DNA of 38,009 bases, taken from Chloroflexota bacterium. GTDB taxonomy: Bacteria > Chloroflexota > Dormibacteria > Dormibacterales > Dormibacteraceae. Both the position numbers and the translations under genes were made by a program. The notes under the pieces are model-generated. The model saw only the letters and a list, made by a program, of their open reading frames with translations, did not search any database and was not told the DNA's origin. The stretch is taken from NCBI GenBank assembly GCA_005880795.1, contig VBGP01000027.1, positions 1 to 38,009 on the forward strand, in the 5' to 3' direction. The stretch's first letter is position 1, and every line of letters begins with the position of its first letter. Shown here piece after piece: positions 8,685 through 31,730 of this stretch.

Positions 8685-8732
8685 CGACTGGCCCAGGCGA
8701 GTCCCAGGGCACCGCCTTATGCTGGCGGCGCC

Positions 8733-9062: not shown

Positions 9063-9074
9063 TTCAGGGTCGGC

Positions 9075-14103: not shown

Positions 14104-14841
14104 ATGGTAGTCACCAAGCTCGGGCCGTCCTCCTGGCGCGACGCCCTGGACGGAGCCACGGCGGGGGTGCTGGCGCCGCATGGCTATGCCTTGAAGCCGA
14201 GGGAATCGCTGGGGCAGCCGGACCTCGACCGCATCTTTCTCGAGCGCTGCCGAGAGGCGTTCGCGAAGCTCAACAGGACAGTCGGACAGGGCGTGATCGC
14301 AGTCGTCAGCCCGCATCGCTCCGAAGGCCGTTCCTCGGTCGCAGCCGGGCTTGCCCTGTCGCTGGTGCAAGATCTCGAACGCCAGGTCTTGCTGGTCGAC
14401 CTCGACCTTCGGCGGCCAGGCCAGGGTGTCCTGTTCGACGTCAACGACAGTCCGGGCATGGTCGAGTACCTCGAAAACGATGCTCCGTTGAGGCTGACCG
14501 CCGGAGGCATGTCGCGTCGGCTGTGGCTGCTCACCGCCGGCGCGACAACAGGTGATCACGTCGCCCGGATGGCGCACCTGGTGGCCCACAGCGAGTTCTT
14601 TGCCGCGTGCCGCCAAAGCTTTGGATGGACTGTGGTCGACCTACCACCCCTGCTCGAGACGTCTGAAGCGTCCTATCTCGCGGGCCTGGCCGACGCCTGC
14701 GTGTTGGTCGGTCGCTACCGGCGTTCGTCGATCCACGCGCTCAGTCGTGCCGTCGCACTCATTCCAAACGACCGGCCCACAGGCTTCGTGCTTACAGGAA
14801 ACCAGTCGCGGGTTCCAGCCTGGATCAATCGGCTGATCTGA
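14104..14841 (+). CDS. CpsD/Wzc-like P-loop ATPase (copy 1), Walker A lysine replaced by arginine
   Basis: 245 residues of the bacterial tyrosine-kinase/ParA-like fold that partners Wzz. The Walker A region reads SPHRSEGRSSVAAGLA (residues about 69-84), with arginine where the family normally has lysine in GEGKS. Walker A' is VLLVDLDLRRP and Walker B is WTVVDLPPLLETSEA. No tyrosine-rich C-terminal tail is present; the protein ends GNQSRVPAWINRLI, similar to the end of the second copy at 19727-20398. It may regulate polymerisation by nucleotide binding without tyrosine autophosphorylation. It follows the Wzz-like gene by three bases and is convergent with the flippase gene, leaving 25 bases between the stops and no strong terminator. 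Confidence 0.85.
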   Translation: MVVTKLGPSSWRDALDGATAGVLAPHGYALKPRESLGQPDLDRIFLERCREAFAKLNRTVGQGVIAVVSPHRSEGRSSVAAGLALSLVQDLERQVLLVDLDLRRPGQGVLFDVNDSPGMVEYLENDAPLRLTAGGMSRRLWLLTAGATTGDHVARMAHLVAHSEFFAACRQSFGWTVVDLPPLLETSEASYLAGLADACVLVGRYRRSSIHALSRAVALIPNDRPTGFVLTGNQSRVPAWINRLI

Positions 14842-14866
14842 GCCGCCGCCGGGCGTCCGGGCCGAT

Positions 14867-16354
14867 CTAGCTGGCGATTGGCGCGGGAGCGGTGGTCGTG
14901 ACGGCGGGACGCTCCTTGCGAAGGAGCTGAACCACCGATCGTGCGTCGCCGACGGTGAGCGTACGCAGGGCAACCGAAAGCAGGCCGTAAGCCAGGGCGC
15001 CGATCGCGATCAACAGCGGGAGCGAGAGCCCACCGGCCATGCGTACCGCAACCACCATTCCTAGCGTCGCAAGGCCGACCCGAGCGAAATAGAGTGCTTC
15101 GCGCCATCCCAGGAACCGCTCCTGAACGATCGCGAGCGCGACGACGGCGAAGACGAGCTCGCCGACAAGGTTTGCGACCGCGGCACCGATCCCGCCGTTC
15201 GACCATAGTCGCGTCGCAAGTGGAATCAGCCCGAGGTTCAGTGCCCCGAACAAGAAGAGCATGGCCCCACTTGCGGTGGCCCACGAGCGCTGACGACCTG
15301 TAGCGACCACCGTGCACGCCAGGACCATCACCACGGCAGTCACGACCCAGCTGGCGCTCAGCACGATGAGGATCGGAATGCTTCGGGAGAATGTTTCGGG
15401 GTAGTGCAGGAACGCGAAAAGCGGTTGGCCCACGGCGCTCAGGCCGGCCGCGAGGGGCATTGCCAGCATCAGGACCGCTTGCAAAGCGCGTCGCGAAGCG
15501 AGAGCGGCCGCCGCCGGCTGGGCCGCTCCCAACCGCGTCAGCACCGGTAGAAGTGCCGACGTCATCACCACTGGAACGAGCAAGACGGTGGTACTCAGGC
15601 GGGCGGCCGCCGCGAACCAGCCGACGGTAGCGTCGTTGGTCATCAAGCCCATGAATATCGTGTCGATCTGGCTGTAGAGGCCCTGCGACAGCGCGAGCGC
15701 GAGGAACGGCATGGCGCCAATCGCAATCTCGCGATAGTCCCCGCGCGAAGGGAGCGAGAGCGGCAGGCGCCTGCGGATGAAGTAGAAGGCGTTCACCGCG
15801 AGCCCTGCAATCGCGCCCGCCAGCAACGCGACGCAGAACCACACCGGACTGTGGGTCAAGACAAGGAGCGGCAGGCCGGCGAGCAGGACGATCATGCTGC
15901 TTGCAACCGCGGCAACCGAGCGCCAGCGCATCTCCTCCAACCCCTGCAGCGCCGAGGCGAGCACACCATTGAGGACGTTGAACAGGGTGACCGCGAACAG
16001 CACTGCGAGCACAACCATTGCCTGGTGTGACGTGCCCCGCAGGCTGATGTAGACCCAGGTGATCACGACCAGGACAGCCCAGACCGGTGCTCGCATCACA
16101 AGGCCGGCCGCGATCAGCTGCGACGAACGGCCGCGGTTCGCCGCCACTTCGCGAACGATGTACAGGTTCGTCCCCGCTACGGCAACCGCACCCAGGACGG
16201 TGCAAATCGAAAGGGCGAATGCCAGCTGGCCAAGACCTGCGTCGCCCAGATAAACGGGCAGGAGAACAACGGTGAGAAAGCCGAGCAGGGAAGTGATGAG
16301 CTGCGACGAAAGCAGAACCGCGACGTGGTTGACCAGCGAACGGGCCGCGTCCAT
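14867..16354 (-). CDS. Wzx-type polysaccharide flippase (MOP superfamily)
   Basis: 495 residues with about a dozen to fourteen hydrophobic helices spread over the whole length, starting with VNHVAVLLSSQLITSLLGFLTVVLLPVYLG, the N-terminal pattern of the MATE/Wzx superfamily (helix 1 with a conserved G and an L-P-xYLG end). Its job is to flip the lipid-linked repeat unit across the cytoplasmic membrane. The short hydrophilic C-terminal tail ends in TTTAPAPIAS. The ATG at 16354 overlaps the stop of the upstream GH44 gene by one base (TGATG), so translation is coupled. It is the last gene of a six-gene minus-strand operon, 21414 to 14867 (Wzz, ATPase, small membrane protein, Wzy, GH44, Wzx). Confidence 0.92.
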   Translation of the reverse strand: MDAARSLVNHVAVLLSSQLITSLLGFLTVVLLPVYLGDAGLGQLAFALSICTVLGAVAVAGTNLYIVREVAANRGRSSQLIAAGLVMRAPVWAVLVVITWVYISLRGTSHQAMVVLAVLFAVTLFNVLNGVLASALQGLEEMRWRSVAAVASSMIVLLAGLPLLVLTHSPVWFCVALLAGAIAGLAVNAFYFIRRRLPLSLPSRGDYREIAIGAMPFLALALSQGLYSQIDTIFMGLMTNDATVGWFAAAARLSTTVLLVPVVMTSALLPVLTRLGAAQPAAAALASRRALQAVLMLAMPLAAGLSAVGQPLFAFLHYPETFSRSIPILIVLSASWVVTAVVMVLACTVVATGRQRSWATASGAMLFLFGALNLGLIPLATRLWSNGGIGAAVANLVGELVFAVVALAIVQERFLGWREALYFARVGLATLGMVVAVRMAGGLSLPLLIAIGALAYGLLSVALRTLTVGDARSVVQLLRKERPAVTTTAPAPIAS

Positions 16355-18075
16355 CAGTGCGCCACCGGCACTCGCAGCAGGGTGATCGATGCCCGCGGAA
16401 CCTCGAGGGTCAGGGAAGCCGACGCGCTCGTATCGGCAAGGCGGACGATCGCGGACGAGTTGGCGTCCGAGTACTGGAATCGCTGAACGGGCCCTACCGC
16501 TGAGACTTTGCCCAGTCCGACGGTTAGGTTGTGAGCTGCCTGCAGATCCTTGTTGATCAATATGAGATCCACATATCCGGATCCCTTGCTGGCGAAAACC
16601 GAGACCGTGTCCGAAGCCGATGACGTTGCCCGCACTGACTGACTGCCGAACGTACCCTGCTTGCCGTCAGCGTTGCGGTACATGCGAAACGCGAACCAGG
16701 CCGGCGAACCGGGCTTCGGGGCGGTCCAATACGTGGCGATGTAGACGCCCTCCCGGCCGAATATTCCCAGGGCTTCCGCCTCGGCCAGTCCGGCGCTCGG
16801 GCTGTCGCCGCCGCCCATGTTGTACTCGGTAATTCCGACGCGAGTCCCGGGATACTCGGCTGCAACCCAGCTCTTGAGCCGCGGAATCAGGTTGACGGGC
16901 TGCTTGATCCAGGACTCGTCGACGTAAGTCGGATCCCACAGTGCGCGTGTGGCACGCATGCGCAGGGCGTCGATGTCCGGATTGGAGGTGTCGGTTGCGA
17001 CGCCGCGAGCCTCGGGGTAAAAGTGCACTGTGAGCACGTCGAGCGACCGCGTTCCAGTGGCCGCGTCGTGCTGCCGCGCGGCGTCGAGAAACCAGGGTAT
17101 GAGAGGCATCCCACCGTGCGCGTTCCGGTCGGGCTGGGTCGCAAAGTTGTCCGTCCCACGGTCCAGCTCCGAGTCCCAGTAATCCGTCCAGCAGCAGCTC
17201 TCGGGCCCCAGGAGCTGGGCTGTGGGGTCGACGCTCTTCACTGCAGCTGCGTACTGCAGGTAGGTGCGGGCGAGCTCGTCGTAACCGACCCGTGCCGGGT
17301 GCACGTCGCGATGCGTCTGCGACCAGAGCATCGGCTCGTTGTCGATGGCGTAGAAACCAACGCCGCCCGCGCCGGCGCTCCCAAACAGCGTGCGCAGGTG
17401 ATTCACCCACTCGTCCTGGTACACCGCCGCGCTGCCGGAATCGGGATTGAGCACGAATGGGGCGTTCTTGCGGGGTAAGGAGGGCACGCTGGTGCGCTGC
17501 CGGTTCGCCGCGGGGTCGTAGCCGGCGACGGCGCCATCGCTGGAGATCGCGGGCCCGCCGTCGCCGGGCACGTTCAGGGATTGGTCGGAGTTCTTGTCCG
17601 AGCGCGCCACCCAGCCGGTCGCCGGGATCGTGATGATCGAGGCCATGCCTCCGCTGCGGTCGCCGCTCACGAATCGGTCTGACTCAGATCCGCCCTGGTC
17701 GCTGTAGTTGAGATTGCGGAACTCCCAGTCGGAAGCGGCGTTCCAGGCGTGGCCGATCACCCAGTTGTAGCGGCTGCTTGGGTTGCCTCCCCAGCGATTG
17801 ATGGTGGCGTCGAGTCCCGCCACGGCGCCTGGGTCGCGCTTGGCGACCCCGTAGATGTACGGGCTGATGTCGTGCACGTCGGCGCTCGGGTCGACAACGA
17901 TCAAGATCTCGCCCGTCGCCATCGGCACCACGACCGATGGCGTCCCAGAGGTTCCCATCAGGTCATGCCAGAAGACTCTTGCGTCGTGCATCAGGACCCT
18001 GTGTTCGAGCAAGCCGACACTGGCAAGCAAGAGCACGTTGAAGACCAGGCTGAGCGCGAGGAGCTTGCGCCTCAT
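16354..18075 (-). CDS. Membrane-anchored glycoside hydrolase, family GH44-like
   Basis: 573 residues. A hydrophobic N-terminal helix (about 5-23, after MRRK) acts as signal or anchor, so the enzyme faces outward. The catalytic core resembles GH44 endoglucanase/xyloglucanase: ATINRWGGNPSSRYNW (90-105), YAIDNEPMLWSQTH (242-255) with the likely acid/base E247, and VGITEYNMGGGD (413-424) with the likely nucleophile E417. A beta-rich C-terminal part follows (about 480-573). GH44 enzymes cleave beta-1,4-glucans and related polymers by a retaining mechanism. Placement between Wzy and Wzx, with four-base and one-base overlaps to them, suggests it trims or releases the polymer made by this locus instead of scavenging plant material. 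Substrate is inference. Confidence 0.85.
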   Translation of the reverse strand: MRRKLLALSLVFNVLLLASVGLLEHRVLMHDARVFWHDLMGTSGTPSVVVPMATGEILIVVDPSADVHDISPYIYGVAKRDPGAVAGLDATINRWGGNPSSRYNWVIGHAWNAASDWEFRNLNYSDQGGSESDRFVSGDRSGGMASIITIPATGWVARSDKNSDQSLNVPGDGGPAISSDGAVAGYDPAANRQRTSVPSLPRKNAPFVLNPDSGSAAVYQDEWVNHLRTLFGSAGAGGVGFYAIDNEPMLWSQTHRDVHPARVGYDELARTYLQYAAAVKSVDPTAQLLGPESCCWTDYWDSELDRGTDNFATQPDRNAHGGMPLIPWFLDAARQHDAATGTRSLDVLTVHFYPEARGVATDTSNPDIDALRMRATRALWDPTYVDESWIKQPVNLIPRLKSWVAAEYPGTRVGITEYNMGGGDSPSAGLAEAEALGIFGREGVYIATYWTAPKPGSPAWFAFRMYRNADGKQGTFGSQSVRATSSASDTVSVFASKGSGYVDLILINKDLQAAHNLTVGLGKVSAVGPVQRFQYSDANSSAIVRLADTSASASLTLEVPRASITLLRVPVAH

Positions 18076-19598
18076 CTGGCGTGCCGGACGGCCGTAAGCC
18101 GATGTGCGGCCTCGACGGTCCCTAGAGCTGCGCCGATAACGATTGACACACGCAGGCTGACGAGGCCCTGGTCGTACCAGCCCTCGATCAGATAGGCGGC
18201 TATGGCCACCAATACCACGATTCCGATCAGGGCAATCTGCGGATCACTTCGCCGGGCAAGCCGGCAGGCCGCGATGACGGCGGCAGCGACCATCCACCAG
18301 AACGCGATGGCTCCCAGGATTCCCAGCCGCAACCAGAGATAAAGGATCGTGTTGTGCGGCTCATATGCGATGAAAGCGTCGATGTTGCTCAGGTTGGGCA
18401 GCCCGATCGTGGTTGGTAACGGCTTGCCAAATCCGAGGCCGAAAGGCGTCGTAGCGCGGATGTCGATCCCAAGGTCGGTGTTCTCAATCACTCGATAGAG
18501 GTCCGACGCAGCGTCTCGCCGATTTGGGTCGATCGCCGAGCGAATGGCGCTGGCGGGCTCCGCCAGGACGCCCGTGCGGTTCCAGAAGAAAGGCAGGTAA
18601 AGGGCGGTGAGGCTGAGAATCGCTACAGCGATTCCACCAGTCATCCAACGCCGCCGCGGCGAGCGGGCCCACGCGACCGCGAGCAGGATGGCAAGCCCCG
18701 CGCCCAGCACCACGTACGCGGTTCGCCGGTTGTTGACAAGGTTGGCGAACACCACCATCGGAAGCAGCGCGGTCGCCACTTGCCGCATGCGACCCTTGAT
18801 TCCGTACATCCACAAGGCCGACGTGAGGAGGATGTACACGCCGAGGAAAACCGCTTCCTCGTGAGCGATCACGTTTGCTGCAGGTGGACTCGCCCCACGC
18901 AAGGCAAGGAGATACCTGAGCGTGCCTTCCAATCCCTTCAACCCGCTAGCGATGATCAGGGTCCACAAGAAGGCGAGGATGTTTCGACGCGAGACGAAGA
19001 GCTGCGCGGCGAGAAGGTACAGGCAGGCGAGATACGCCCACGGGCGCAGCTCCCACAGTGATGCGGTCAGGTTTCCTCCGGTGGCCAGTCCGTGCAGCTC
19101 GCCCGCGATGACCGCCACGACGACCAACGCGACGCCGGCGGCGAGATGGGATCGCGGCGCGGCAAGCGTCCCTTCGGCCGCGGCCTTCGCGATCCAGGTC
19201 ATCGCTACCGTCGCCACGATCAGCTCCGCCGGGTTGACTGCGAGACCGGAAAGCCCGGCCCCCACGGTAAGGCTCTTGAATATCGGGACCGCCTCGGTGA
19301 TCGTCTTCAGGCCGGCGATCGACGGGTATTCCTCGAACAGCAAGGCCAGCCCGACGAGCATCACCACGCCAGCCGGTGGCCACCGCCAGGTGATGACAGG
19401 GACCAGGAACCAGATCAGCACGGCGATCCCGAAGGTGTAGCCGCTCAGAGTGAGCTCGCCGATCAGAATGCCGGCCAAGGCGGCGAACACGAGGAATGCC
19501 GCGCCGAGGATCAGAGTCCGATCGCGTGACGCGCGCGCGACTTCGCGCACAGAGGGTCCTGATGCCGCGGGAGAAAGCTCAGCGTCCAAGGCCGGCAT
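18072..19598 (-). CDS. O-antigen ligase/Wzy-like polysaccharide polymerase
   Basis: 508 residues from ATG 19598 (TTG 19607 would add three). About ten to twelve membrane helices and one large outward loop near residues 320-420 containing RRDAASDLYRVIENTDLGI and PFGLGFGKPLP, then EPHNTILYLWLRLGILG, the H-N-x-x-L pattern typical of the O-antigen ligase/Wzy_C family. It should join lipid-linked repeat units on the outer face of the membrane. The gene overlaps the upstream small membrane protein gene by 20 bases and the downstream GH44 gene by four (ATGA), so the whole block is translationally coupled. Polymerase rather than ligase is the more likely role because Wzx and Wzz are adjacent and no other polymerase is present. 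Confidence 0.88.
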   Translation of the reverse strand: MPALDAELSPAASGPSVREVARASRDRTLILGAAFLVFAALAGILIGELTLSGYTFGIAVLIWFLVPVITWRWPPAGVVMLVGLALLFEEYPSIAGLKTITEAVPIFKSLTVGAGLSGLAVNPAELIVATVAMTWIAKAAAEGTLAAPRSHLAAGVALVVVAVIAGELHGLATGGNLTASLWELRPWAYLACLYLLAAQLFVSRRNILAFLWTLIIASGLKGLEGTLRYLLALRGASPPAANVIAHEEAVFLGVYILLTSALWMYGIKGRMRQVATALLPMVVFANLVNNRRTAYVVLGAGLAILLAVAWARSPRRRWMTGGIAVAILSLTALYLPFFWNRTGVLAEPASAIRSAIDPNRRDAASDLYRVIENTDLGIDIRATTPFGLGFGKPLPTTIGLPNLSNIDAFIAYEPHNTILYLWLRLGILGAIAFWWMVAAAVIAACRLARRSDPQIALIGIVVLVAIAAYLIEGWYDQGLVSLRVSIVIGAALGTVEAAHRLTAVRHAR

Positions 19599-19719
19599 AC
19601 ACCACAAGCAGAGTCACCAGGACCACTACCAGGGCACTCAGATGGGTCGAGCCCCCGAATCTGCGGTCGCGTAAGCCGAGGAACATGAAGGCCGCCAGGA
19701 GGACGGCAATCCAGGTCAC
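19579..19719 (-). CDS. Small two-helix membrane protein, 46 residues
   Basis: GTG at 19719 with AGGTAAG about nine bases upstream, stop at 19579. The product begins VTWIAVLLAAFMFLGLRDRR, has a short basic loop RDRRFGGST, then a second helix LSALVVVLVTLLVVYAGLGR, so it is a helical hairpin. It lies between the ATPase gene (7 bases downstream of its stop) and the Wzy-like gene, whose start it overlaps, in a block where every junction is overlapping or near. This arrangement supports it as a real gene. I recognise no family; a role as a partner of the polymerase or of Wzz is only a guess from position. Confidence 0.6.
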   Translation of the reverse strand: MTWIAVLLAAFMFLGLRDRRFGGSTHLSALVVVLVTLLVVYAGLGR

Positions 19720-21414: not shown

Positions 21415-21637
21415 GGCCGAATCCGAGTCTATCCAGCGACTTTCATGGGCGAAATGGGCCAGGCCGCCGGGCCTGGGCAGGGCGTCCCAGGCTCTTTGGG
21501 GCTGGGGTCCCTAAGGCAATCGACATAGTGGGACAGCCCGCTCGGATTGCCCATTTACCGAATTTCACCCCAGTTTCAGCATTCGAGCATGCGTTGTTGC
21601 GGCTATGCCGTCCGCGTCTGCCGGCAGGGGGAGTGGA
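21415..21637. promoter_or_regulatory. Divergent control region between Wzz copy 2 and the GT2 operon
   Basis: 223 bases between two operons reading outward. It contains ATGGGCGA immediately followed by AATGGGCC (21445-21460), ATTGCCCATTT (21546-21556), and AGCGACTTTCA (21435-21445), all related to elements found upstream of other genes in this locus. GC-rich partial dyads (GGCCGCCGGGCC, 21461-21472 area; GGCTCTTTGGGGCTGGGG) lie between them. The strong ribosome site AGGGGGAG at 21626-21633 belongs to the plus-strand gene. No -35/-10 pair is convincing by eye. Confidence 0.4.
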
Positions 21638-22747
21638 ATGGGCAGCATCTATGAGGGCGCGGTGCGCATCCTGGACAAGGAAGGCCACGAGCTAAGCGCC
21701 GCGTCAGCCCACCACTTCAGGCCGCTGATCAGTGTCGTGACGCCGACTCACAACCGGATCGAGCTGCTAACCCGGACCCTCCGGTCGCTGGCCGGCCAAG
21801 AAGGTGTCTCGGCCGGCGAGTACGAGGTCATCGTCGTGGTCGATGGGGACTATGACGGTACGGCCGACGCTCTCCGGCAGATGACGTTTCCGTTCCGGCT
21901 GACGGTCATCCCGCAGGTCCGATCGGGGGTTGCGGTCGCCCGCAACACGGGTTGGAGGGCGGCCCGCGGCGACCTGGTCCTGTTCCTCGACGACGACATC
22001 GTTCCGAAGCCGAACCTGCTCCAGGAGCACCTGAAGGCGCATCTGGTCCAGACGCGCGCAGTTGTGATAGGTCGTTTTTCCCCGGACACCTCAACCCGCC
22101 GCAACGCCTGGACGCGCTATGACGAGCTTACGCAAGAAAAGAAATACAAGGCAATGGGCCGTACCGAGGCGCCATCGGGAATACGGCTGTACACGGGCAA
22201 CGTCTCCATGCCAAAAGAGGCACTGGGGGCCGCTGGAGGATTTGATCACACGCTTCCGCGCAACGAGGACGTTGATCTGGGACTGCGTTTGCAGGATCTC
22301 GGATACGGATTCGTCTACGCGCCTGCGGCGGACGGCCTGCATTGCGGCTACCACGACTTTGATGGCTGGCGGCGCATGCCGCCGATGTACGGCCGTCTGG
22401 ACGTGGCGATGTATCGAGACCGTGACTCAATCGGCGGCCTAGAGACCATCGTGGCGTGCTACCACGACCGGCATTTGTTGAACCGAGTCGCGATCCGGCT
22501 CGCGATCCTACGCCCTTCGCTCGCACGCGGCCTGCAGGGCGCGCTCGCATGGACGGGACTGACCAGCTACTCCTGGCGAATGGAACGCGTTTCGTATCTC
22601 TCCTTGAGCGCGCTGTGGAACATTCTGTACTGGACCGGTGTGCGCGATGGCTTTCGCGGCAACCGGCCCTTCGTGCAGATGTTGCGCAAGACCCGCAGGC
22701 ATCGGCGGCGGCCGTACCGACGTCTCTCGCCCTCGTCGGAACGTTGA
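21638..22747 (+). CDS. GT2-family glycosyltransferase
   Basis: 369 residues from ATG 21638, chosen because AGGGGGAG lies five bases upstream (ATG 21605 would add eleven residues without a ribosome site). GT-A fold: SVVTPTHNRIELLTRTLRSL (about 33-52), VVVDGDYDGT, the donor-site DXD variant LVLFLDDDIVPKP (about 117-129), TGNVSMPKEALGAAGGFD and the acceptor-side ED motif NEDVDLGLRLQDLGYGF (about 211-227). The C-terminal 80 residues carry a hydrophobic stretch and a very basic tail (RKTRRHRRRPYRR), suggesting peripheral membrane attachment. It adds one sugar from a nucleotide donor to the lipid-linked oligosaccharide. The stop overlaps the next start as TTGA. Confidence 0.9.
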   Translation: MGSIYEGAVRILDKEGHELSAASAHHFRPLISVVTPTHNRIELLTRTLRSLAGQEGVSAGEYEVIVVVDGDYDGTADALRQMTFPFRLTVIPQVRSGVAVARNTGWRAARGDLVLFLDDDIVPKPNLLQEHLKAHLVQTRAVVIGRFSPDTSTRRNAWTRYDELTQEKKYKAMGRTEAPSGIRLYTGNVSMPKEALGAAGGFDHTLPRNEDVDLGLRLQDLGYGFVYAPAADGLHCGYHDFDGWRRMPPMYGRLDVAMYRDRDSIGGLETIVACYHDRHLLNRVAIRLAILRPSLARGLQGALAWTGLTSYSWRMERVSYLSLSALWNILYWTGVRDGFRGNRPFVQMLRKTRRHRRRPYRRLSPSSER

Positions 22748-25446
22748 TCGAGGTCGACCCGCACCCATCAGTTGACCTGGCGCGGTACGGCTGGGCGAGG
22801 AACCTGCTCCTCAAATTCAGCTCGCTTCGTACTCATGCGCTTGCAGAGGCCCAGGCGGCCGCAGGTGGGGTGGCCGAGGGAGCGCCGGAGGCCCAACTCA
22901 ACCTGCTTCTGCTGCTCTGCGCAGCCGAACAGCTGGCCGCCGACCACCTGGCGCGAGGCGGGCTCGAGCTGTCATCCGTACGTCGCATCGTGCGCCGAAA
23001 CGGGTTGATGAACGCCTTGTTGACCACGCTGGAGAACGCTTCAGCGAGGCTGTGCTCGGTCCGCGCTTCTATAGGCGATCACCGGACGGTTCACCGCCTC
23101 GCCCTGGTTCGCGCGCTCGCCCTGAAGGTGGCCGAGTCGGTTGCCCGTGGTGAAGCTTCGACTGCTTTCGAACCGTCGGCGATCGCGGAGGTGTTCGCCG
23201 ACGCGGATCCGGTGCTTGCGAACTCCAGCATGAAGATCCCGTCCTGTTTTCGCGCTCAAGACCTTACCGCCGCCGACTGCTTCGAGCTGGCGGCCCGATT
23301 CGTGAGGGAGTCAGGAGGGCGCGGTCAAATCCTGGTGGTCGGCGTGCGGACCTCAGGTTCGTACATGGCCCCCCTGATCGCAGGATGGCTCAGGGCACAC
23401 GGTTGCTCGGCCGGATATACGACCATCCGGCCCAAAGCCCCGCTCGTCGCAGCGGAGAGAGCTGTGATCAGGCGCGTTCATCCCCGGTCGGTCCTGATTG
23501 TCGACGATCCGCCTATGACCGGGGCGTCGTACCTGCGGACCGCCATGCGTCTGGAGGAGTGCGGCGTTGACCGCGACGCGATCTGGTTGCTGGTACCGGT
23601 CGGGGCGGAAAATGCGCTGGACGCCGAGGCATTGGCCCGGCTAGCGGCCTATCGGCGCGTCGAGCTTCCGCACCACGAGCTCGCCATCCGAAGGCAGCTC
23701 GCGTGCTCCGAGCTGCTGGCCTTCATCGCCTCCATCGCGGGACAGCCGGGTGCGGCTGTCACACCGATCCTTTCCCCGGCCGAGGTCGAGCGGCACTCGC
23801 GGCGCCGACACGTCAAGCAGGTCTACGACGTTGCGGGCTGGGGCCGGGTGCACGTCAAGGGCGTCGGCCTGGGCTGGTTTGGGTACCCTGCACGCCACGC
23901 GGCCGTTGCGCTCGCCGGCCGAATCCCCAAGCCGTTGGGTTTCTGGAAAACCCTGATGGTCACGCGGGAAGAGCCGGAAATGCCGCAAGCGCGTCCGGCA
24001 CTCGCCGACGTGGCGGAATACGTCGCCAAGCGATCGCGCGGCCTTCGTGTGATGGCGCAGCGGCCGTCGCAGAAATTCCAGAAAGACGGCTTTTACCGCC
24101 TGGCGAAAGTCCTGGCCCGTGTCCACGGCCCGCTCGCTGCTTTGAGCATGGGTCGTGTCCGCCGTTTGCTCGTCGAAGCGGCGAGTGAGGCCCCGGCAAG
24201 CCTGATCGATGGCCGCATGGGCGTCGAGGAGTGGCTTGGCCAATCGCCCGCGCTGAAGCGCGACTTTGAAGAGCACGCGTTCGACAAGGACGATCTCGGT
24301 CTCTATGACGCCGCCTATGACCTGGCGGGCGCCGTGCTCGAGCTCGGACCAGGTCGTGACGCGGAAGCGACGCTGGTCGATCGCTACATCGAACTTTCTG
24401 GTGATGCAGATGTACGCTCCCGACTGTCCCTCGCCCTTCTCCTGTACGGCGCCTTCTTGCTGGAGAGGCGCTCGTGGGAGGTCCAAGGCGAGCGCGGAAC
24501 GCCCGGCTGGTCTGCCGCCGTGCAGGCATGGTTGGAAGCCGAGGCCGCGATGACCTGGGCCACCGACCGGTTCCTGGGTGACGCTTTCCCGGGTCGCCGC
24601 ACCATACCGGCAATGCTTCTGTGGTCGATCGACGTCGACGGCGTGCTCGAGGATGCGGGACTGGGATTTCCGGCCACGACCCCGAGCGGCGCCCTCGCGT
24701 TGCAGCTGGCCCGGGAGGCCGGCGCGGCGGTGGTCCTCAACAGCGGGCGCAGCCTTCCGGAGCTCGTCGCCAGGTGCGATGCGCTTTATCTGGACGGGGC
24801 CGTCGCGGAGTACGGATCGGCGATCTGGGACGCGGTGACCGGGGTGTCGGAGTCCCTCCTCGACCCCGATGAGGCGGCGGGCCTGGAACGGGTTCGAGCC
24901 GCCGCACTGGGTCTATCCGAGGTACATGTCGATTCGCGCTATCAGCACTCCGTCCGCCTGCGCCGATTCGTCCAGGGTCGTGCGCGGTCGCTGGAGCCGT
25001 CACAGATCGAGGACTTGCTCGAGGCGGGGTCAGGTCGGGTCTCCGCTGTCCAGGGAATAAGGCAGACCGACATAGTCGGCGCGGCTCGCGACAAGTTTTC
25101 AGGACTGGAGCGACTGCGCCGGCGGATGGGCTGGCGAGGAGACGTCTTTGCGTTAGGGGATGCCCAACCGGACATTGCTGTCGCAAGGCACGCGACTCGC
25201 GCATACGCGCCGCGCTACTACGATGACGCGCTCAACGGCGTTGCCATCCATTTGCGGGCTGACCGGCAGAAAGCCGTGCTGGAAGCCGTCCGCAGGGAGC
25301 ACGGATCGAGGTCCAAACACGCCCTTCCAACCTGGCCGGCCGCGGATAGCGCCGTCATCAAGCTGCTGGCGCTTCGCGACGCACCGCGGCTGTGGCGGGC
25401 AGTGCGTGCGTTTGGTCCTGGACTTGTAGAGGTGTTCCGCACCTGA
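22744..25446 (+). CDS. Phosphoribosyltransferase-(kinase-like)-HAD phosphatase multidomain protein
   Basis: About 900 residues from TTG 22744, which overlaps the GT2 stop as TTGA; earlier starts would lie inside that gene. Three regions: an alpha-helical N terminus (1-165); a type-I phosphoribosyltransferase domain with VVGVRTSGS (198-206) and the PRPP loop VLIVDDPPMTGAS (250-262); a middle part (about 357-584) with VHVKGVGLGWFG and YDAAYDLAGAVLE that resembles an aminoglycoside-phosphotransferase-like kinase but lacks a clear catalytic HGD loop; and a HAD domain with SIDVDGVLED (nucleophile D630, D632), LNSGRS (S667), K784 in RDKFSGLERL, and GDAQPD (805-810). It sits among glycosyltransferases and is coupled to GT2 and GT9. 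A plausible job is to attach ribose-5-phosphate from PRPP to the glycan and then remove the phosphate; an unrelated nucleotide-like pathway is the alternative. Confidence 0.8.
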   Translation: MIEVDPHPSVDLARYGWARNLLLKFSSLRTHALAEAQAAAGGVAEGAPEAQLNLLLLLCAAEQLAADHLARGGLELSSVRRIVRRNGLMNALLTTLENASARLCSVRASIGDHRTVHRLALVRALALKVAESVARGEASTAFEPSAIAEVFADADPVLANSSMKIPSCFRAQDLTAADCFELAARFVRESGGRGQILVVGVRTSGSYMAPLIAGWLRAHGCSAGYTTIRPKAPLVAAERAVIRRVHPRSVLIVDDPPMTGASYLRTAMRLEECGVDRDAIWLLVPVGAENALDAEALARLAAYRRVELPHHELAIRRQLACSELLAFIASIAGQPGAAVTPILSPAEVERHSRRRHVKQVYDVAGWGRVHVKGVGLGWFGYPARHAAVALAGRIPKPLGFWKTLMVTREEPEMPQARPALADVAEYVAKRSRGLRVMAQRPSQKFQKDGFYRLAKVLARVHGPLAALSMGRVRRLLVEAASEAPASLIDGRMGVEEWLGQSPALKRDFEEHAFDKDDLGLYDAAYDLAGAVLELGPGRDAEATLVDRYIELSGDADVRSRLSLALLLYGAFLLERRSWEVQGERGTPGWSAAVQAWLEAEAAMTWATDRFLGDAFPGRRTIPAMLLWSIDVDGVLEDAGLGFPATTPSGALALQLAREAGAAVVLNSGRSLPELVARCDALYLDGAVAEYGSAIWDAVTGVSESLLDPDEAAGLERVRAAALGLSEVHVDSRYQHSVRLRRFVQGRARSLEPSQIEDLLEAGSGRVSAVQGIRQTDIVGAARDKFSGLERLRRRMGWRGDVFALGDAQPDIAVARHATRAYAPRYYDDALNGVAIHLRADRQKAVLEAVRREHGSRSKHALPTWPAADSAVIKLLALRDAPRLWRAVRAFGPGLVEVFRT

Positions 25447-26564
25447 TGAGGCGGAAGCGATTCCTCGTCTGCGTCCAGGGCGGGCATGCCGACGGCCTGC
25501 GATCGGTACCGTTCATCCGCGCCCTGCGCAGGGCGGAACCCGACGCTTACATTGCCGTTCTCGCGTACGAGTTCGCGCGCGACCTGTGGACGTCCTGCCC
25601 GTACGTCGATGATTTCATCGCCACCGGAGAGGACGCCGTGCTGGGACGGGGCTGGGAGACGCGGCTCAAGAAGATTGGCCGCACCGCCGCTCTGGCCGCC
25701 CGACTGTTTGCCCGATTCGACGTCTTCCTGAACCTGGAGGTGCAGGCGGAGGGAGGATTCCCCGGACTGCTCGCCATCTGCTCCGCCGTCCCTGTCCGCG
25801 TCGGTCACGGAGGGCTGCGCCGCGGCATGAACCGCTCGCCAGGTCGCGCCGACATGCGCGTCCCGTACGAGGACCGTATGCGCGACCTGATGGGCGAGCT
25901 TGGCGTTTCGGTCACTGACACCAGCCTCGAGGCGTGGTGTGAGGACGAGGATCGTGGCACCGTTCGCGATGCTCTGATGGCCGCGGGCTGGCATCCGGGC
26001 CGGCGCGTGGTCGTCTGCCACGCTGGCAGTGACTGGTCTTGTCAGACCTGGTCAGCCGGCTCATGGGTCACGGTCGCGCGGAGCCTGATCCAGAATCACG
26101 ACGCCATGGCCGTCTTTACGGGCGTGGTAGCCGAGGCGGCCAGCGTCGATACCATCGTCCAACGCTGCGGCGGGGCAGCGGTCAGCCTGTGCGGCCTGAC
26201 CTCGTTCCGGCAGCTGTGCGCCCTGCTCGAAATGGCAGACCTGGTCATCTCCGGGGACACGGTGGTGGCGCCGCTGGCGCTGGCGATGGGTGCGCCGACG
26301 ATAACTCTGGCCGCTTACGACACCTCCAACTGGAGCACGTCCCGCTTACGTGAGCTCAACGCGATTTCTGGCTTTGAGGTCCGCGAGCCACTTCCCTGGA
26401 GCGTTCGCTGTCACTGGAACCGGATCGGGCGCGTCCACGGTTGCATAAGCGAGTCGTGCGTGGGCGTCCATGGCATGGGAAAGATCCAGGCCCGCGACGT
26501 CCTCGAACTGGCCCAAAGCGTCATCGCCCGCTCGGACGCACAGCTCGGAGCGGTGCTGCCTTGA
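25446..26564 (+). CDS. GT9-family glycosyltransferase (heptosyltransferase-like)
   Basis: 372 residues from ATG 25446, overlapping the previous stop by one base (TGATG). GT-B fold of the ADP-heptose:LPS heptosyltransferase family: N-terminal FLVCVQGGHADGLRSVPFIRALRRAEPDAYIAVLA, the domain-swap strand VVVCHAGSDWSCQTWSAGSWV (about 190-210), the C-terminal LCGLTSFRQLCALLEMADLVISGDTVVAPLALAMGAPTI (about 255-295), where SGDTVVAPLA replaces the usual SDTGPMHLA. Gram-positive and capsule loci use this family for sugars other than heptose, so the donor is unknown. The C-terminal Cys-rich segment (CHWNRIGRVHGCISESC) is unusual. Its stop overlaps the next start (TTGA). Confidence 0.85.
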   Translation: MRRKRFLVCVQGGHADGLRSVPFIRALRRAEPDAYIAVLAYEFARDLWTSCPYVDDFIATGEDAVLGRGWETRLKKIGRTAALAARLFARFDVFLNLEVQAEGGFPGLLAICSAVPVRVGHGGLRRGMNRSPGRADMRVPYEDRMRDLMGELGVSVTDTSLEAWCEDEDRGTVRDALMAAGWHPGRRVVVCHAGSDWSCQTWSAGSWVTVARSLIQNHDAMAVFTGVVAEAASVDTIVQRCGGAAVSLCGLTSFRQLCALLEMADLVISGDTVVAPLALAMGAPTITLAAYDTSNWSTSRLRELNAISGFEVREPLPWSVRCHWNRIGRVHGCISESCVGVHGMGKIQARDVLELAQSVIARSDAQLGAVLP

Positions 26565-27622
26565 GCAGGGTCGGTGTCTTCTTTGCGAGCCGGCCTCCCG
26601 ACCCACGTGGCCCACACCGCGATCATCTCGAGTTCTGCCGCGCGACCGGCGCGGAGCTCGTCTGCCTCGAGCCGAAAGTCCCACCAGCGCTGAAGAGACG
26701 GCTTCGTCTACGACATCCACTGATCGGGATGTGGATGGCGTGGTCGATCTTCCGCGTGCGGCGCCGTTACGACGTCTTGATCACGGACTCCGAGCACGTC
26801 GGCCTACCCCTTGCTTTGATGCTCAGGGTTTCCCGGTCGCGCTGCCGCCATGTTCTCGTCGTGCACCTGGTGTCCACACCGCTGAAGGCCTTTTTCATCA
26901 GGTACCTCGCGGGCAGGGGCGTGAGCTGCTACGTGTACCACTTTCCCTCCGCCGAGCCCGTGCTGGAGCGACTTGGGGTGCCGCCCGAGCGGCGCCGTTT
27001 CGTGCCCTACATGGTCGATTCCGAGTTCTGGTCTCCGGTCGATGTCCCTCAGAAACGTCAGATCTGCGCTGTCGGGCTCGAGTATCGCGACTATCCGACG
27101 CTGCTCGAGGCTGTGCGCGGGGTCGATGTCGCGGTCGACATCGCAGCCGGCAGTCCGTGGTCGCAGAAGGCTGACGGCACTCACCGCGCGGAGCTGCCGC
27201 CCAACGTCCGTGTCGGCCGGCGCGACTACGCGGAGCTGCGGCAGCTCTACGCTGAATCCCTTTTCACCGTCGTCCCACTTCTTGAAAACGAGATGCAGGC
27301 AGGCATCACCACGATCGTCGAATCGATGGCGATGGGGCGGCCGGTCGTCGTCTCCCGGACACGCGGCCAGGTCGGGACCGTCCGCGACAGCCACAACGGG
27401 CTCGAGGTTCCGCCAGGAGACGTGGCCGCACTCCGGCGGGCGATCCACTGGTTGCTCGACCACCCGGAAGAGTGCCGCCGCATGGGAGCCGAAGGCCGCC
27501 ACACGATCGAGTCGGGAATGACCCTCGAACATTTCGTCGAGCGGATGTCGGCCGTCGTCGCAACAGTGTCTGATCCAGGCCCGCGCCTCGCGTCAGGCGT
27601 CACCCCTGAGGCCGCACGGTGA
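26561..27622 (+). CDS. GT4-family glycosyltransferase
   Basis: 353 residues from TTG 26561, overlapping the preceding stop as TTGA. GT-B fold with a weak N-terminal half (RVGVFFASRPPDPRGPHRDHLEFC, then ITDSEHVGLPLALML) and a clear C-terminal GT4 half: VRVGRRDYAELRQLYAESLFTVVPLLENEMQAGITTIVESMAMGRPVVVSRTRG, NGLEVPPGDVAALRRAIHWLLDHPEECRRMGAEGR. The E-x7-E type motif is present in the ENEMQAGITTIVE stretch (E plus seven residues plus E pattern visible). It probably adds a further sugar to the repeat unit. The stop overlaps the deacetylase start as GTGA. Confidence 0.87.
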   Translation: MSRVGVFFASRPPDPRGPHRDHLEFCRATGAELVCLEPKVPPALKRRLRLRHPLIGMWMAWSIFRVRRRYDVLITDSEHVGLPLALMLRVSRSRCRHVLVVHLVSTPLKAFFIRYLAGRGVSCYVYHFPSAEPVLERLGVPPERRRFVPYMVDSEFWSPVDVPQKRQICAVGLEYRDYPTLLEAVRGVDVAVDIAAGSPWSQKADGTHRAELPPNVRVGRRDYAELRQLYAESLFTVVPLLENEMQAGITTIVESMAMGRPVVVSRTRGQVGTVRDSHNGLEVPPGDVAALRRAIHWLLDHPEECRRMGAEGRHTIESGMTLEHFVERMSAVVATVSDPGPRLASGVTPEAAR

Positions 27623-28362
27623 GCGAGCTCACATGGATGCCGATCCTGATGTACCACCGCATCGTGGAACAAGAGCCGCCGGTCGATCCGGACCGAATCT
27701 GCACATCGGTGGGTCGACTGGCCGATCACCTTGATTTGCTGGCCGCACACGATTTCGCGGCAGTGCCGCTCGAGCTCGCCTGTCGACCGCCGGAGCATGG
27801 GGAAGGACGGCGCTTTGCGATCACATTCGACGACGGCTACGAGGAGACCCTGCGACTGGCACAGCCCGTGCTCGAGGCCCGATCCCTCCCCGCCACGGTA
27901 TTCGTGGTGAGCAGCATGATCGGCGGGAATGCGACCTGGAACGACGAGCCGCGGCCGCTCTTGACGCGGACGCAGCTGCTCGATCTGCATGCGAGCGGAA
28001 TGTTCATCGGCAGCCACGGCCGGAATCATCGCCGGCTCTCGACGTTGGAACCCCCAGCCATCCAGGACGAGGTGCAAGGCTCGCGGGAAGAGTTGGAGCA
28101 ATTGCTCGGAGTCGCGGTGAGGTTTATTGCCTACCCGCATCACGACCTCGATGCTCGCGTGGCAGCGGCCGCGGCGAGTGCAGGTTATGCGGGCGCGGCG
28201 GGCGGCCGCGCGGGGCGGCATGAGCGATACAACCTGCATCGCATCGACGCCGGGCGGATGAGCACGCGGGAGCTCTTGCTCCACGCGTCGGGCCTGCATC
28301 GCTGGGCGCGGCGGCAGCCAATGGCGCGCGCTGTACGCCGCGCCGCGGTTCGGTTCTTCTGA
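27619..28362 (+). CDS. Polysaccharide deacetylase (NodB/CE4 domain)
   Basis: 247 residues from GTG 27619. CE4 metal-dependent deacetylase that removes N-acetyl (or O-acetyl) groups from a polysaccharide. Motifs: MYHRIVEQ near the start, catalytic motif 1 FAITFDDGYEET (about 71-82), metal-binding motif 2 SHGRNHRRLS (about 133-142), and motif 3 FIAYPHHDLD (about 172-181), where R-P-P/Y is replaced by Y-P. No signal peptide or membrane segment is visible, unlike secreted CE4 enzymes, so it may act on the lipid-linked unit inside the cell or belong to the cytosolic subset. It suggests that the polymer contains an N-acetylated sugar made cationic. Followed after two bases by a GNAT gene. Confidence 0.9.
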   Translation: MSELTWMPILMYHRIVEQEPPVDPDRICTSVGRLADHLDLLAAHDFAAVPLELACRPPEHGEGRRFAITFDDGYEETLRLAQPVLEARSLPATVFVVSSMIGGNATWNDEPRPLLTRTQLLDLHASGMFIGSHGRNHRRLSTLEPPAIQDEVQGSREELEQLLGVAVRFIAYPHHDLDARVAAAAASAGYAGAAGGRAGRHERYNLHRIDAGRMSTRELLLHASGLHRWARRQPMARAVRRAAVRFF

Positions 28363-28364
28363 CG

Positions 28365-29543
28365 GTGGACGTTTCAGTCGAGACTCCAGGCCCGGGTCTC
28401 TTCCTCGATGAGTGGGACGCGCTGGCGCGCACATCGCCATCGGGAGTGTTCGGCACCGCGGAATGGCACGCAGCAGTGCAGAAGGCGTACGGAGACCGCG
28501 GCCGCGCCGCTGTTGCTGCGTTCCGCGAACATGATCGCCTCCTCGGGGTCGCGCCATTTCGCTTCGGCTCTCGACCCTTGATACATGACGCCACTTTGCT
28601 CGGCATGGGAGAGGGCGGATACGGCCTGGGCGACTACGCCGGAATCCTTGCCGCACCAGGACGCGAGGGGGACGTTGCCGATGCCGTCGTCTCGTGGCTC
28701 GCCGCGAGCGCTGGATGGGATCTGCTCGATCTGCAGCAGCTCCCCCCGGGGCGATTGACCAAGGCGCTGCTCGAATCGATCCGACGCGCGGGCCTGAGGT
28801 CTTTGGTGCGCCGGCACAACATCTGCCACGTGATCGAGCTGCCGTCGACGTGGGCGGAATATCGATCTCGGCTTTCGCCCGGCGCCCGCGACTGGCTCGA
28901 ACGCAAACCGCGCAAGGCGGAACGTGAGCTCGGCGCGACAATCGAGCTCATCGAGCCGGACCGCTTGATCGAAGAGTACCGGACGATGCGCCGGTTCCAG
29001 GCCCAGCGCTTCGGAGGGCAGCCGCCGGAAAGGGAGAGCAAGCTGGCAGCCGTCATCTCGGCGTGGCTGCCCGTGGCTTACGAGCGGAACTGGCTGCGGA
29101 TGTTCCGGCTCAGGAGCGGCTCCCGAACCATCGGCGTTCTGCTCGGCTACGAGTACGAGGACGCTTTCTATTTCCACTCGGCGGCGTTCGAATCACTTGG
29201 CGAGGGAGCCAAGTACAGTCTCGGCGCATCGCTGCTCGCCGCCGCCCTGCACTACAGCATCGACCACGGGCTCGAGCGCTTCGACATGCTTCGCGGCCAT
29301 TACGACTACAAGGTCCGTCTGGGCAGCGAAAAGCGCTACAACTACCGCGTCATGGTTTTCCGCGACTCGCTGATGGGTCGCGGGATCGAGGCGGCACTTC
29401 ACATCCGCACCATTCTCAAAGGCAAGCGACCGTGGCGGACCGAGCTGGAAGGGCCTCTCGATGTGGAGGCCGGTTCCGACGACTCAGATCGCTCGGCGCG
29501 CGCGCCGGAGCACCTGGCGACCTCCCCGGTAGGAGTCGAGTAA
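28365..29543 (+). CDS. GNAT acyltransferase of the FemAB/BioF2-like (Acetyltransf_6) type, copy 1
   Basis: 392 residues from GTG 28365. Two tandem GNAT folds are expected in this family. Typical stretches: VFGTAEWHAAVQKAYGDRGRAAVAAF and LLGVAPF in the N half; RRFQAQRFGGQPPERESKLAAVISAWL, FRLRSGSRTIGVLLGYEYEDAFYFHSAAFESLGEGAKYSLGASLLAAALHYSIDHGLERFDMLRGHYDYKVRLGSEKRYNYRVMVFR in the C half. Members such as CelD/BcsL-like proteins in polysaccharide loci transfer acyl groups, or amino acids from tRNA in FemX proteins; here a polysaccharide acylation is likely. The acyl donor is unknown. The last 60 bases overlap the 3' end of the convergent GNAT gene. Confidence 0.85.
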   Translation: MDVSVETPGPGLFLDEWDALARTSPSGVFGTAEWHAAVQKAYGDRGRAAVAAFREHDRLLGVAPFRFGSRPLIHDATLLGMGEGGYGLGDYAGILAAPGREGDVADAVVSWLAASAGWDLLDLQQLPPGRLTKALLESIRRAGLRSLVRRHNICHVIELPSTWAEYRSRLSPGARDWLERKPRKAERELGATIELIEPDRLIEEYRTMRRFQAQRFGGQPPERESKLAAVISAWLPVAYERNWLRMFRLRSGSRTIGVLLGYEYEDAFYFHSAAFESLGEGAKYSLGASLLAAALHYSIDHGLERFDMLRGHYDYKVRLGSEKRYNYRVMVFRDSLMGRGIEAALHIRTILKGKRPWRTELEGPLDVEAGSDDSDRSARAPEHLATSPVGVE

Positions 29544-30884: not shown

Positions 30885-31471
30885 GCGAACGCTTGCTGCC
30901 CGCGCTTTTCCGGTTGCCCAGGCCCCCCATCGATTACCTGCGTGAGCCGCGGCGAAGCGTGCGCCGGTTGTTTCGCTTCTTCAATGCGCGATGGCAGCTG
31001 CGCAGCAGCGACCACCTTGGACCCTGGGTTCGCGTGCAAGGTCGCATGCACGTCAGCAATCGCGGCCACCTCAACGTCGGCGAGCGAGTGGCCTTCCTCT
31101 CGCACCCGGTACCGATCATCCTCCACACCCTTCCTGGCGCTCGCCTGGACATTGGCGACCGGACAGTGCTCAATTACGGGATCGACATCTCGGCCGTGAA
31201 GGAAGTCCGTATCGGCGCTGACTGCCTCCTTGGAACTCATGTCTCGATTCTCGACAACGATTTTCACGAGCTGACGGCTCGTGACCGCATGCCGGAGTCC
31301 CGCCCTGTCCTGATCGCGGACGGTGTCTGGATCGGCAACCGTGTTCTGATCCTGCCGGGAGTCAGCATCGGGGCCGGCGCGGCTGTTGGAGCCGGCTCCG
31401 TGGTGATGACCGACATTCCGGAGCGATGCCTCGCCCTGGGCAACCCCGCGCGCGTGATCAAGAAGTTCTGA
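30881..31471 (+). CDS. Hexapeptide-repeat O-acyltransferase (left-handed beta-helix)
   Basis: 196 residues from ATG 30881. The middle and end show hexapeptide repeats: LNVGERVAFLS, ARLDIGDRTVLNYGIDISAVKEVRIGADCLLGTHVSILDNDFHEL, PVLIADGVWIGNRVLILPGVSIGAGAAVGAGSVVMTDIPERCLALGNPARVIKKF, the standard C terminus of maltose/galactoside O-acetyltransferase-type enzymes. The catalytic His is probably that of NDFHEL. These enzymes form trimers in the cytoplasm and use acetyl-CoA or acyl donors. It probably acylates a sugar of the repeat unit. The 3' end overlaps the convergent acyl carrier protein gene by 14 bases; acyl-ACP use is possible but not shown. Confidence 0.9.
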   Translation: MSERLLPALFRLPRPPIDYLREPRRSVRRLFRFFNARWQLRSSDHLGPWVRVQGRMHVSNRGHLNVGERVAFLSHPVPIILHTLPGARLDIGDRTVLNYGIDISAVKEVRIGADCLLGTHVSILDNDFHELTARDRMPESRPVLIADGVWIGNRVLILPGVSIGAGAAVGAGSVVMTDIPERCLALGNPARVIKKF

Positions 31472-31730
31472 CCGAATCCGACCTTGGAGCCGGCGCGCGG
31501 CTCTCGAGTACCTGGACGATCGCCTCGGCGCTGGTCATCTCCACTATCTCTTCGGTGGTGAACGGAGTCCCGAAGTACTCTTCGAGCGCGACCACGACGG
31601 TCAGGTGGTACAACGATGTCCACCTAGGGCATGTGTCCTGGGTCAGGTGCGCCGGTAGTTCCGCCTCGTCCACAAAAAGAGCGCCCGCGATGATCCGCCT
31701 CACCTCGGCCGCTATCTCGGTGTTGCTCAC
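31458..31730 (-). CDS. Acyl carrier protein, stand-alone
   Basis: 90 residues, the normal size. Four-helix ACP pattern: IAAEVRRIIAGALFVDEAELPA, then the phosphopantetheine site WTSLYHLTVVVALEEYFGTPFTTEEIVEMTSAEAIVQVL. The usual D-S-L is T-S-L here, with the modifiable Ser39. This W-x-S-L-x-H-L form is seen in ACPs that partner FkbH-like enzymes. The start ATG overlaps the FkbH stop as ATGA, so the pair is produced together; AcpS, encoded two genes upstream, would install the phosphopantetheine arm. Likely cargo is glyceryl or another short hydroxyacyl group. Confidence 0.87.
   Translation of the reverse strand: MSNTEIAAEVRRIIAGALFVDEAELPAHLTQDTCPRWTSLYHLTVVVALEEYFGTPFTTEEIVEMTSAEAIVQVLESRAPAPRSDSVRTS

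Follow-up and report, generated by a model that had tools for sequence, protein, structure and literature searches.

We found that a gene in the exopolysaccharide locus of a Chloroflexota bacterium encodes a 900-residue protein (the core) in which a helical N-terminus, a type-I phosphoribosyltransferase (PRTase), a domain with the choline-kinase/APH fold and a HAD-IIB phosphatase follow one another in a single frame, and that this protein represents a so far undescribed family in scattered soil bacteria. Judging from the combined analysis, the core may carry out PRPP-dependent transfer of ribose-5-phosphate to a glycan, probably lipid-linked, followed by 5-dephosphorylation and export, a tentative reading that we regard as close to an even prospect.

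The core gene and its locus

The window, that is, the whole stretch of 38,009 nucleotides analyzed here, contains the following genes around the core:

9300-9956, + strand: initiating sugar-phosphate transferase (Bac_transf; PF02397, E 1.2e-65)
14867-16354, - strand: Wzx-type flippase (PF01943, E 1e-26)
18072-19607, - strand: Wzy/O-antigen-ligase-like polymerase (PF04932, E 4.3e-9)
21605-22747, + strand: GT2 glycosyltransferase, EpsD-like (PF00535, E 2.6e-27; NF041875 EpsD, E 4.4e-80, below its cut-off)
22744-25446, + strand: core protein, 900 aa (ORF, homologue family, AlphaFold model)
25446-26564, + strand: GT9 (heptosyltransferase-like) glycosyltransferase (PF01075, E 1e-14)
26441-27622, + strand: GT4-type glycosyltransferase (PF13692, E 2.4e-13), whose actual start is probably close to the GT9 stop
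27619-28362, + strand: polysaccharide deacetylase (PF01522, E 5.7e-23)
28365-29543, + strand: FemAB/GNAT-like acyltransferase (PF13480, E 2.7e-16)

The overlap coupling of the core frame to the GT2 and GT9 genes, claimed in an earlier note on this DNA, was confirmed at both ends: the core begins with a TTG at 22744 that overlaps the stop of the upstream GT2 ORF, and its stop (25444-25446) overlaps the downstream GT9 ATG at 25446 (TGATG), so that the core is translationally coupled to both. Its frame stays open upstream as far as 22456; however, starts at 22456 and 22549 were rejected because they would imply an overlap of about 200-290 bases with GT2 and because homologues begin near 22744 in the alignment. 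The parts of the core are as follows:

22744-23193, + strand: N-terminal helical region, residues 1-150 (alignment; all-helical in the AlphaFold model)
23221-23748, + strand: type-I PRTase domain, residues 160-335 (PF00156, weak PDB matches, model)
23341-23373, + strand: pyrophosphate loop G-V-R-T-S-G-S-Y-M-A-P, residues 200-210 (residue table)
23491-23529, + strand: PRPP loop VLIVDDPPMTGAS, residues 250-262 (residue table)
23749-24588, + strand: middle domain with choline-kinase/APH fold and degenerate metal site, residues 336-615 (model, Foldseek, residue table)
24607-25308, + strand: HAD-IIB (C2B cap) phosphatase domain, residues 622-855 (PF08282, Foldseek, motif table)

Full-length relatives were identified in other genomes (E down to 2.6e-60), a 900-residue profile matched the family at E 3e-296 and below, and the AlphaFold model of the whole protein was confident (pLDDT 83.7, pTM 0.87); the observation is thus real and far beyond chance. 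The 25 members that we aligned, from Dormibacterota/Chloroflexota, Anaerolineales and Actinomycetota, showed 27-31% identity to the core, and L56, Q63 and D67 were conserved in the N-terminal helical region. Homologues are also present in two isolates, Pseudonocardia asaccharolytica DSM 44247 (L026:8542-11229) and Rhodococcus spelaei C9-5 (L038:8632-11304). The three-domain order with intact PRTase and HAD active sites, as first proposed from the window alone, was borne out by alignment, model and motif tables. A literature search found no description of this three-part architecture, and no relatives were found in viral contigs or, by tblastn, in plasmids. A PHROGs search returned a weak HAD match only, and single-sequence phmmer of the core against the PDB gave nothing useful.

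PRTase and phosphatase domains with intact motifs

PF00156 matched 17 of the 21 core-family members (best E 9.6e-8); the domain in the window scored 20.8 bits against a curated cut-off of 26.3. Sequence-profile search gave weak PDB matches to PyrR, OPRT, APRT and UPRT, and the AlphaFold model showed the beta/alpha order of a PRTase core. Because the HAD domain dominates a fold search with the whole model, the PRTase fold was assessed by sequence profiles and secondary-structure order, without a fold search of its own. The fold expected around residues 190-300, whose absence the earlier note had named as grounds for abandoning its proposal, is supported by the profiles, the PDB matches and the model. 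With regard to the pyrophosphate loop, R202 and S204 (23/24 each), G205 (24/24) and P210 (23/23) were conserved among aligned members. The PRPP loop, in frame where it had been reported, follows the type-I pattern of a hydrophobic strand, two acidic residues and then T/S-G, with D254 and D255 in 23/23 members, T/S259 in 22/23 and G260 in 19/23. Both loops and the beta/alpha order are common to the core and to type-I PRTases (PF00156: OPRT, APRT, UPRT and PyrR), but the core PRTase differs in being fused to kinase-fold and HAD domains and in lying in a glycan locus. Type-I PRTases with a canonical DD loop are known to act on nitrogen bases, and O-transfer by such an enzyme is not an established reaction to our knowledge, which weighs against the glycan reading. 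A nucleobase is nevertheless an unlikely acceptor for the core PRTase; with PRPP as the putative donor, the domain would transfer ribose-5-phosphate to a cell-surface glycan acceptor.

The C-terminal domain was assigned with PF08282, which scored above its cut-off in core homologues, and the HAD part of the model matched 1kyt (Foldseek, E 1.1e-8) as well as sucrose phosphatase, MpgP and T6PP. HAD motifs I-IV are complete (D630, D632, K784, D806 and D810, as well as T/S667, all in 24/24), and the motifs listed earlier for the window (DVDGVLED at 630-637, S667, K784 and GDAQPD at 805-810) do lie in frame. The cap is an alpha/beta insert at about 690-780 in the model, between motifs II and III, and the best Foldseek matches were C2B enzymes. 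The C-terminal domain comes closest to phosphatases of the HAD-IIB class whose substrates are small sugar phosphates and phospho-glycosides, such as sucrose-phosphate phosphatase, MpgP and T6PP. The four motifs and the C2B cap are common to the sugar-phosphate phosphatases of this class (PF08282; SPP, MpgP, T6PP and TA0175), which finish glycoside synthesis by phosphate removal, whereas the core HAD is covalently joined to a PRTase and not paired with an NDP-sugar transferase. This domain would act second and strip the 5-phosphate to leave a ribofuranosyl residue.

A stand-alone HAD copy was also present in a glycan locus of another genome (G038, L022:9016-10092). It would suit a different arrangement, in which the PRTase and middle domains are non-catalytic sensors controlling a HAD that trims a pathway sugar phosphate, and PRPP does serve as a signal for proteins of the PRTase fold, for example PyrR and PurR. 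However, the essentially invariant pyrophosphate and PRPP loops fit catalysis better than sensing, and we consider such a control function highly improbable.

A kinase fold with a degenerate metal site

The middle domain (model pLDDT 83.7) matched choline kinase (8bi6; Foldseek E 2.1e-6, probability 1.0) as well as LicA and APHs, with a TM-score of up to 0.59 by query length. No kinase family emerged from a Pfam scan of all 24 middle domains, and profile-profile comparison with the true APH domain of a neighbouring flippase fusion revealed no relationship (probability about 0); as no Pfam or profile method detects a kinase, the assignment was made by structure. R354, H356, the GxG glycines (G375 and G377), D489, K505 and D522 were invariant in 25/25 members, which on alignment evidence indicates a constrained site. 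Overall fold, catalytic-loop Asp (D489) and F-helix DLA motif are common to the middle domain and choline kinase, LicA and APHs, and the YDLAGAVLE signature does lie in frame at residues 525-533. On the other hand, the metal-binding Asn of HxDxxxxN (+5) is absent, the DFG-position Asp occurs in 14/25 members only, beta3 and alphaC flank the Gly-rich loop, and an invariant Lys precedes the DFG position. The catalytic loop also weakly resembles PxxxDxKxG of inositol polyphosphate kinases (E 0.41).

Of the earlier description of this region as kinase-like, the fold stood by structure, but the usual Mg/ATP residues are missing. Because the metal ligands are not conserved, an ordinary kinase is improbable here, and a repurposed binding domain appears more likely; it may hold the acceptor or position the two active sites. 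The fold and the constrained site could instead serve a non-canonical kinase using D489 and K505, which would phosphorylate a sugar or lipid later dephosphorylated by the HAD, with PRPP as co-substrate or regulator. The missing Asn and the variable DFG Asp speak against this, and a genuine APH gene often adjoins the core (PF01636, E 2.8e-19) and may supply any kinase activity; we therefore find such a kinase very unlikely.

Genomic neighbourhoods of the homologues

Among the genes that accompany core homologues, Wzx flippases stand out, next to glycosyltransferases and polysaccharide deacetylases. Among 118 neighbours within three genes of cores, GT2 was the commonest Pfam family (17), followed by APH (9), GT1/GT4 (7), polysaccharide deacetylase (6) and epimerase (5). 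Flippase-type neighbours occurred within about 10 kb of 16/24 cores compared with 0/20 stretches of 20 kb that served as controls in three of the genomes, a contrast biased by the seeding of the flippase and glycosyltransferase profiles from core loci. A PF01943 flippase lay within 10 kb of the core in 5/6 Dormibacteria genomes, where a share of about 3% would be expected, given 4-6 copies in roughly 3-4 Mb. One homologue (L013) is fused to a flippase (PF01943, E 7e-12) and several others overlap a flippase gene; in our preferred reading, the product would pass to a Wzx flippase for export. At another locus (L017), two core copies 4 kb apart each adjoin their own glycosyltransferase. Homologues lying outside glycan loci would have weighed against the earlier proposal, and the neighbourhoods proved largely glycan-linked; the exceptions were L015, L031 and L072, where the DNA covered showed no glycan genes and two of which lie near contig ends.

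These three loci, together with the fact that most PRTase relatives detected by sequence use bases (PyrR, OPRT, APRT and UPRT), could be explained if the PRTase coupled PRPP with an acceptor resembling a base, from which the HAD made a nucleoside, glycan genes then using or decorating the product; such a pathway has been proposed for the PRTase-HAD pairs of tellurium-type operons. However, this leaves the flippase fusion unexplained, and the neighbours are mainly glycan enzymes. In particular, the tellurium-type variant raised earlier received no support, as PRTase_2 (PF15609, Ter type) reached E 0.052 in only 2/21 members and no Ter or nucleotide-metabolism family was among the top 25 of 104 neighbour families. 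A nucleoside-like metabolite thus appears quite unlikely.

Comparison with known PRPP-dependent glycan systems

In the literature covered here, PRPP-derived pentose enters bacterial glycans through a single soluble enzyme family, gPRT/PRP, and a single membrane route of the UbiA type. No gPRT/PRP enzyme, a group whose structures are presumably present in the PDB, was found among the PDB matches of the core at E <= 1; since no sequence relation was detected, our analogy to this group is one of logic and not of homology. The core and the gPRT-PRP proteins (Klebsiella O4 ORF5, Hib Bcs3 CriT-CrpP and C. jejuni Cj1432) have in common PRPP-transferase-like and HAD domains in one protein, a polysaccharide-locus setting, helical extra domains and the proposed two-step chemistry. 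In contrast, the core has an extra choline-kinase-fold domain, the order PRTase-kinase-HAD and a Wzx flippase linkage. Its PRPP loop is canonical DD, whereas CriT has D/E in this place. Its HAD belongs to class IIB, the C2B cap being inserted between motifs II and III; in CrpP, a mostly helical cap follows motif I (PMC10299916). The opposition of a divergent to an ordinary fold drawn in the earlier note was too strong, because CriT likewise has a catalytic domain with an alpha/beta core similar to PRTases (PMC10299916).

The Citrobacter youngae PPPRS-PRP/flippase/GT136 system likewise combines a PRPP user, a HAD phosphatase and a flippase association, with a polytopic protein often close by, but there the PRPP user, PPPRS, is a UbiA protein integral to the membrane whereas the core PRTase is of the type-I family, and core-linked flippases are Wzx-like where identifiable. 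Alternatively, the core might correspond to the three-component pentofuranose system but with a soluble PRTase, and would match its logic of PPPRS and phosphatase, flippase and GT-C (PMC11127046). In some loci, a flippase is the closest partner, on its own (L023 and L025) or fused to the core (L013). A polytopic protein of about 617 aa, for which 9-12 TM segments are predicted, recurs next to the core (L028, L036 and L040; GT2-fused in L039); of the two that were scanned, from L036 and L028, neither had a Pfam match. However, a Pfam scan of the core and its homologues found no UbiA domain, the family has mostly 0-1 predicted TM segments, and the Dormibacteria flippases are of the Wzx type (PF01943), usual for lipid-PP-oligosaccharides and not for lipid-P-monosaccharides; in addition, the flippase of the window lies 6 kb off on the opposite strand. 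We consider this version unlikely.

As a further point against ribosyl transfer to a glycan, our literature search turned up no account of a polysaccharide with ribose from core-bearing organisms. It is possible, though somewhat doubtful, that the core is a second, independently evolved PRPP-dependent glycan or glycolipid ribosyltransferase, in which a type-I PRTase was recruited from nucleotide metabolism for O-transfer and combined with a HAD of a different class, an acceptor-binding choline-kinase fold and a flippase partner. If so, a non-homologous family with a nucleotide-type PRTase would have converged on the same two-step chemistry, and the kinase fold would be an unusual case of apparent reuse for a role other than phosphorylation. 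Ribose-containing glycans would also be extended to Dormibacterota, Chloroflexota and Actinomycetota, with the core family as a sequence marker for finding them.

The core gene and its locus in the window

The open reading frame proposed in the earlier note, together with all of the motifs quoted there, was found in the window sequence. It encodes a 900-aa protein (22744-25446, +), here called the core, which combines a phosphoribosyltransferase (PRTase), a choline-kinase-fold middle domain and a HAD-IIB domain. Its TTG start at 22744 lies within the stop codon of the GT2 gene, and its own stop codon overlaps the GT9 start at 25446, within the following operon:

21605-29543, operon encoding GT2, the core, GT9, GT4, a polysaccharide deacetylase and a FemAB-like protein

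Other genes of the surrounding exopolysaccharide locus code for an initiating sugar-phosphate transferase, a WecG/GT2 protein, and Wzz-like, ParA-like, GH44, Wzy-like and Wzx (flippase) proteins. The GH44 glycoside hydrolase gene (16354-18075, -; PF12891, E 4e-62) is situated between the Wzx and Wzy-like genes. Elsewhere in the window, a 618-aa protein with weak N-terminal HAD/FkbH-type matches (31727-33583, -) adjoins a short ORF of 90 aa with the appearance of a carrier protein (31458-31730).

Domains of the core protein

First, PF00156 matched the PRTase domain in 17 of 21 core members (best E 9.6e-8), comparison of this domain with the PDB retrieved ancestral PyrR, OPRT, UPRT and APRT at E 0.003-0.7, and the PPi and PRPP loops were essentially invariant across the family. 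Second, most of the core homologues tested exceeded the cut-off for PF08282, and the HAD domain matched HAD-IIB structures in the PDB down to E 2e-12, with TA0175, PH1421 and sucrose phosphatase as the top Foldseek matches. A C-terminal GHxPGxCxxC motif, both Cys columns of which are kept in 90% or more of the homologues in the alignment, is missing from the window core (window 25297-25365, near residue 855).

Finally, neither profile-profile comparison with true APH nor a Pfam scan placed the middle domain (residues 336-615) in a sequence family. Its AlphaFold model (pLDDT 83.7) matched choline kinases, LicA and APHs (E 2e-6, probability 1.0). Based on our overlay on the choline-kinase motif, not on coordinates, we read D489 as the catalytic-loop Asp and YDxxxDLA as the F-helix motif. 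The domain lacks the Asn five residues past D489, and the DFG Asp occurs in 14 of the 25 members of the core alignment; K505, two residues before the DFG Asp position, is present in all 25, and R354, H356, G375 and G377 are also invariant. We read this site as repurposed or non-canonical, rather than decayed.

Distribution of the core family

When 60 relatives were searched with a single sequence, 11 further genomes had matches to the core. An alignment-based scan placed it, among named genomes, in four Pseudonocardia, Rhodococcus spelaei, two Solirubrobacterales, a Nocardiopsaceae, Anaerolineales and Dormibacterota/Chloroflexi members. Within the window's class, 14 of 110 genomes had a strong match (E <= 1e-40), a few of these to fragments. 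The family was rare outside this class, with one of 200 genomes in the order of R. spelaei and two of 201 in that of the Solirubrobacterales members.

The core alignment comprised 25 members. In the core tree, the window protein formed a divergent pair with a copy from genome G023 (L017:14249-17074; support 100/99), and the Actinomycetota members grouped together with moderate support. Locus L017 carries two diverged cores (7366-10053 and 14249-17074) in one glycan locus, each adjoining its own glycosyltransferases.

Association with flippases and glycan genes

We surveyed the neighbourhoods of 24 cores with our own gene calls and profiles, and used 20 stretches from three of the genomes as controls. 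Of the 24 cores, 16 had a flippase-type protein nearby, 18 a glycosyltransferase and 11 a deacetylase, against none in the 20 control stretches. Since core loci served as seeds for the profiles, this control is biased. When flippases were counted independently, with Pfam PF01943, there were four to six per Dormibacteria genome; in five of six such genomes one lay within 10 kb of the core, for which about 3% would be expected per genome. The commonest family among 118 core neighbours in an unseeded Pfam scan was GT2. The flippase gene overlaps the core in four loci (L018, L023, L025 and L039), and in another a 1406-aa ORF (L013:9676-13896) fuses the PRTase-kinase-HAD core to a Wzx-type flippase (PF01943, E 7e-12). 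No glycan genes were seen in the available flanks of L015, L031 and L072, although two of these loci (L015 and L072) are close to a contig end. A nucleoside-like product, the main alternative in the earlier note, is the second rival reading; by the tests available, the core is not a Ter-type PRTase.

In Actinomycetota and Anaerolineales core loci, a true APH kinase domain often resides on the flippase. Wzx-like proteins of about 750 aa carry a canonical C-terminal APH kinase (PF01636, E 2.8e-19 in L038) and adjoin or lie close to the core; in L026 the flippase and the kinase are two separate genes.

Flippase-APH fusions in core loci
L038:6302-8635
L025:11175-13475
L035:2410-4683
L036:11319-13562
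L028:12653-15013
L039:2640-4952
L040:6030-8264

A protein of about 617 aa with 9-12 predicted TM segments also recurs in core loci. Pfam matches were absent in the copies scanned, and it is a candidate GT-C or polymerase. In addition, an 873-aa ORF (L016:12994-15615) fuses GT9 (PF01075) to a Wzx flippase (PF01943).

Recurring TM protein of about 617 aa
L028:15020-16873
L036:5050-6909
L040:629-2512
L039:4949-8251, fused to GT2

Proposed reaction and relation to known systems

HAD-IIB enzymes (SPP, MpgP and T6PP, all among the fold matches of the HAD domain) commonly finish glycoside synthesis by taking off phosphate. Because a PRTase and a HAD-IIB phosphatase are joined in the core, we suggest that ribose-5-phosphate would be transferred and its phosphate then removed, as has been proved for the gPRT/PRP ribofuranosyltransferases (PMC10299916, PMC11127046, PMC12096443). 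The link between core and flippase suggests that, on the cytoplasmic side, a lipid-linked precursor would serve as the acceptor. The main rival takes polyprenyl phosphate as the acceptor; by the tests available, the core is not a UbiA-type PPPRS. We infer the donor, acceptor and product of the core reaction.

The earlier note had set a divergent gPRT fold against an ordinary type-I PRTase fold in this protein. Since the core of CriT is itself PRTase-like, this contrast was too strong and should be toned down. By the tests available, the window's core protein lies outside the gPRT/PRP family, with no sequence match and a different HAD cap class. Despite falling outside that family, the core may work like gPRT/PRP.
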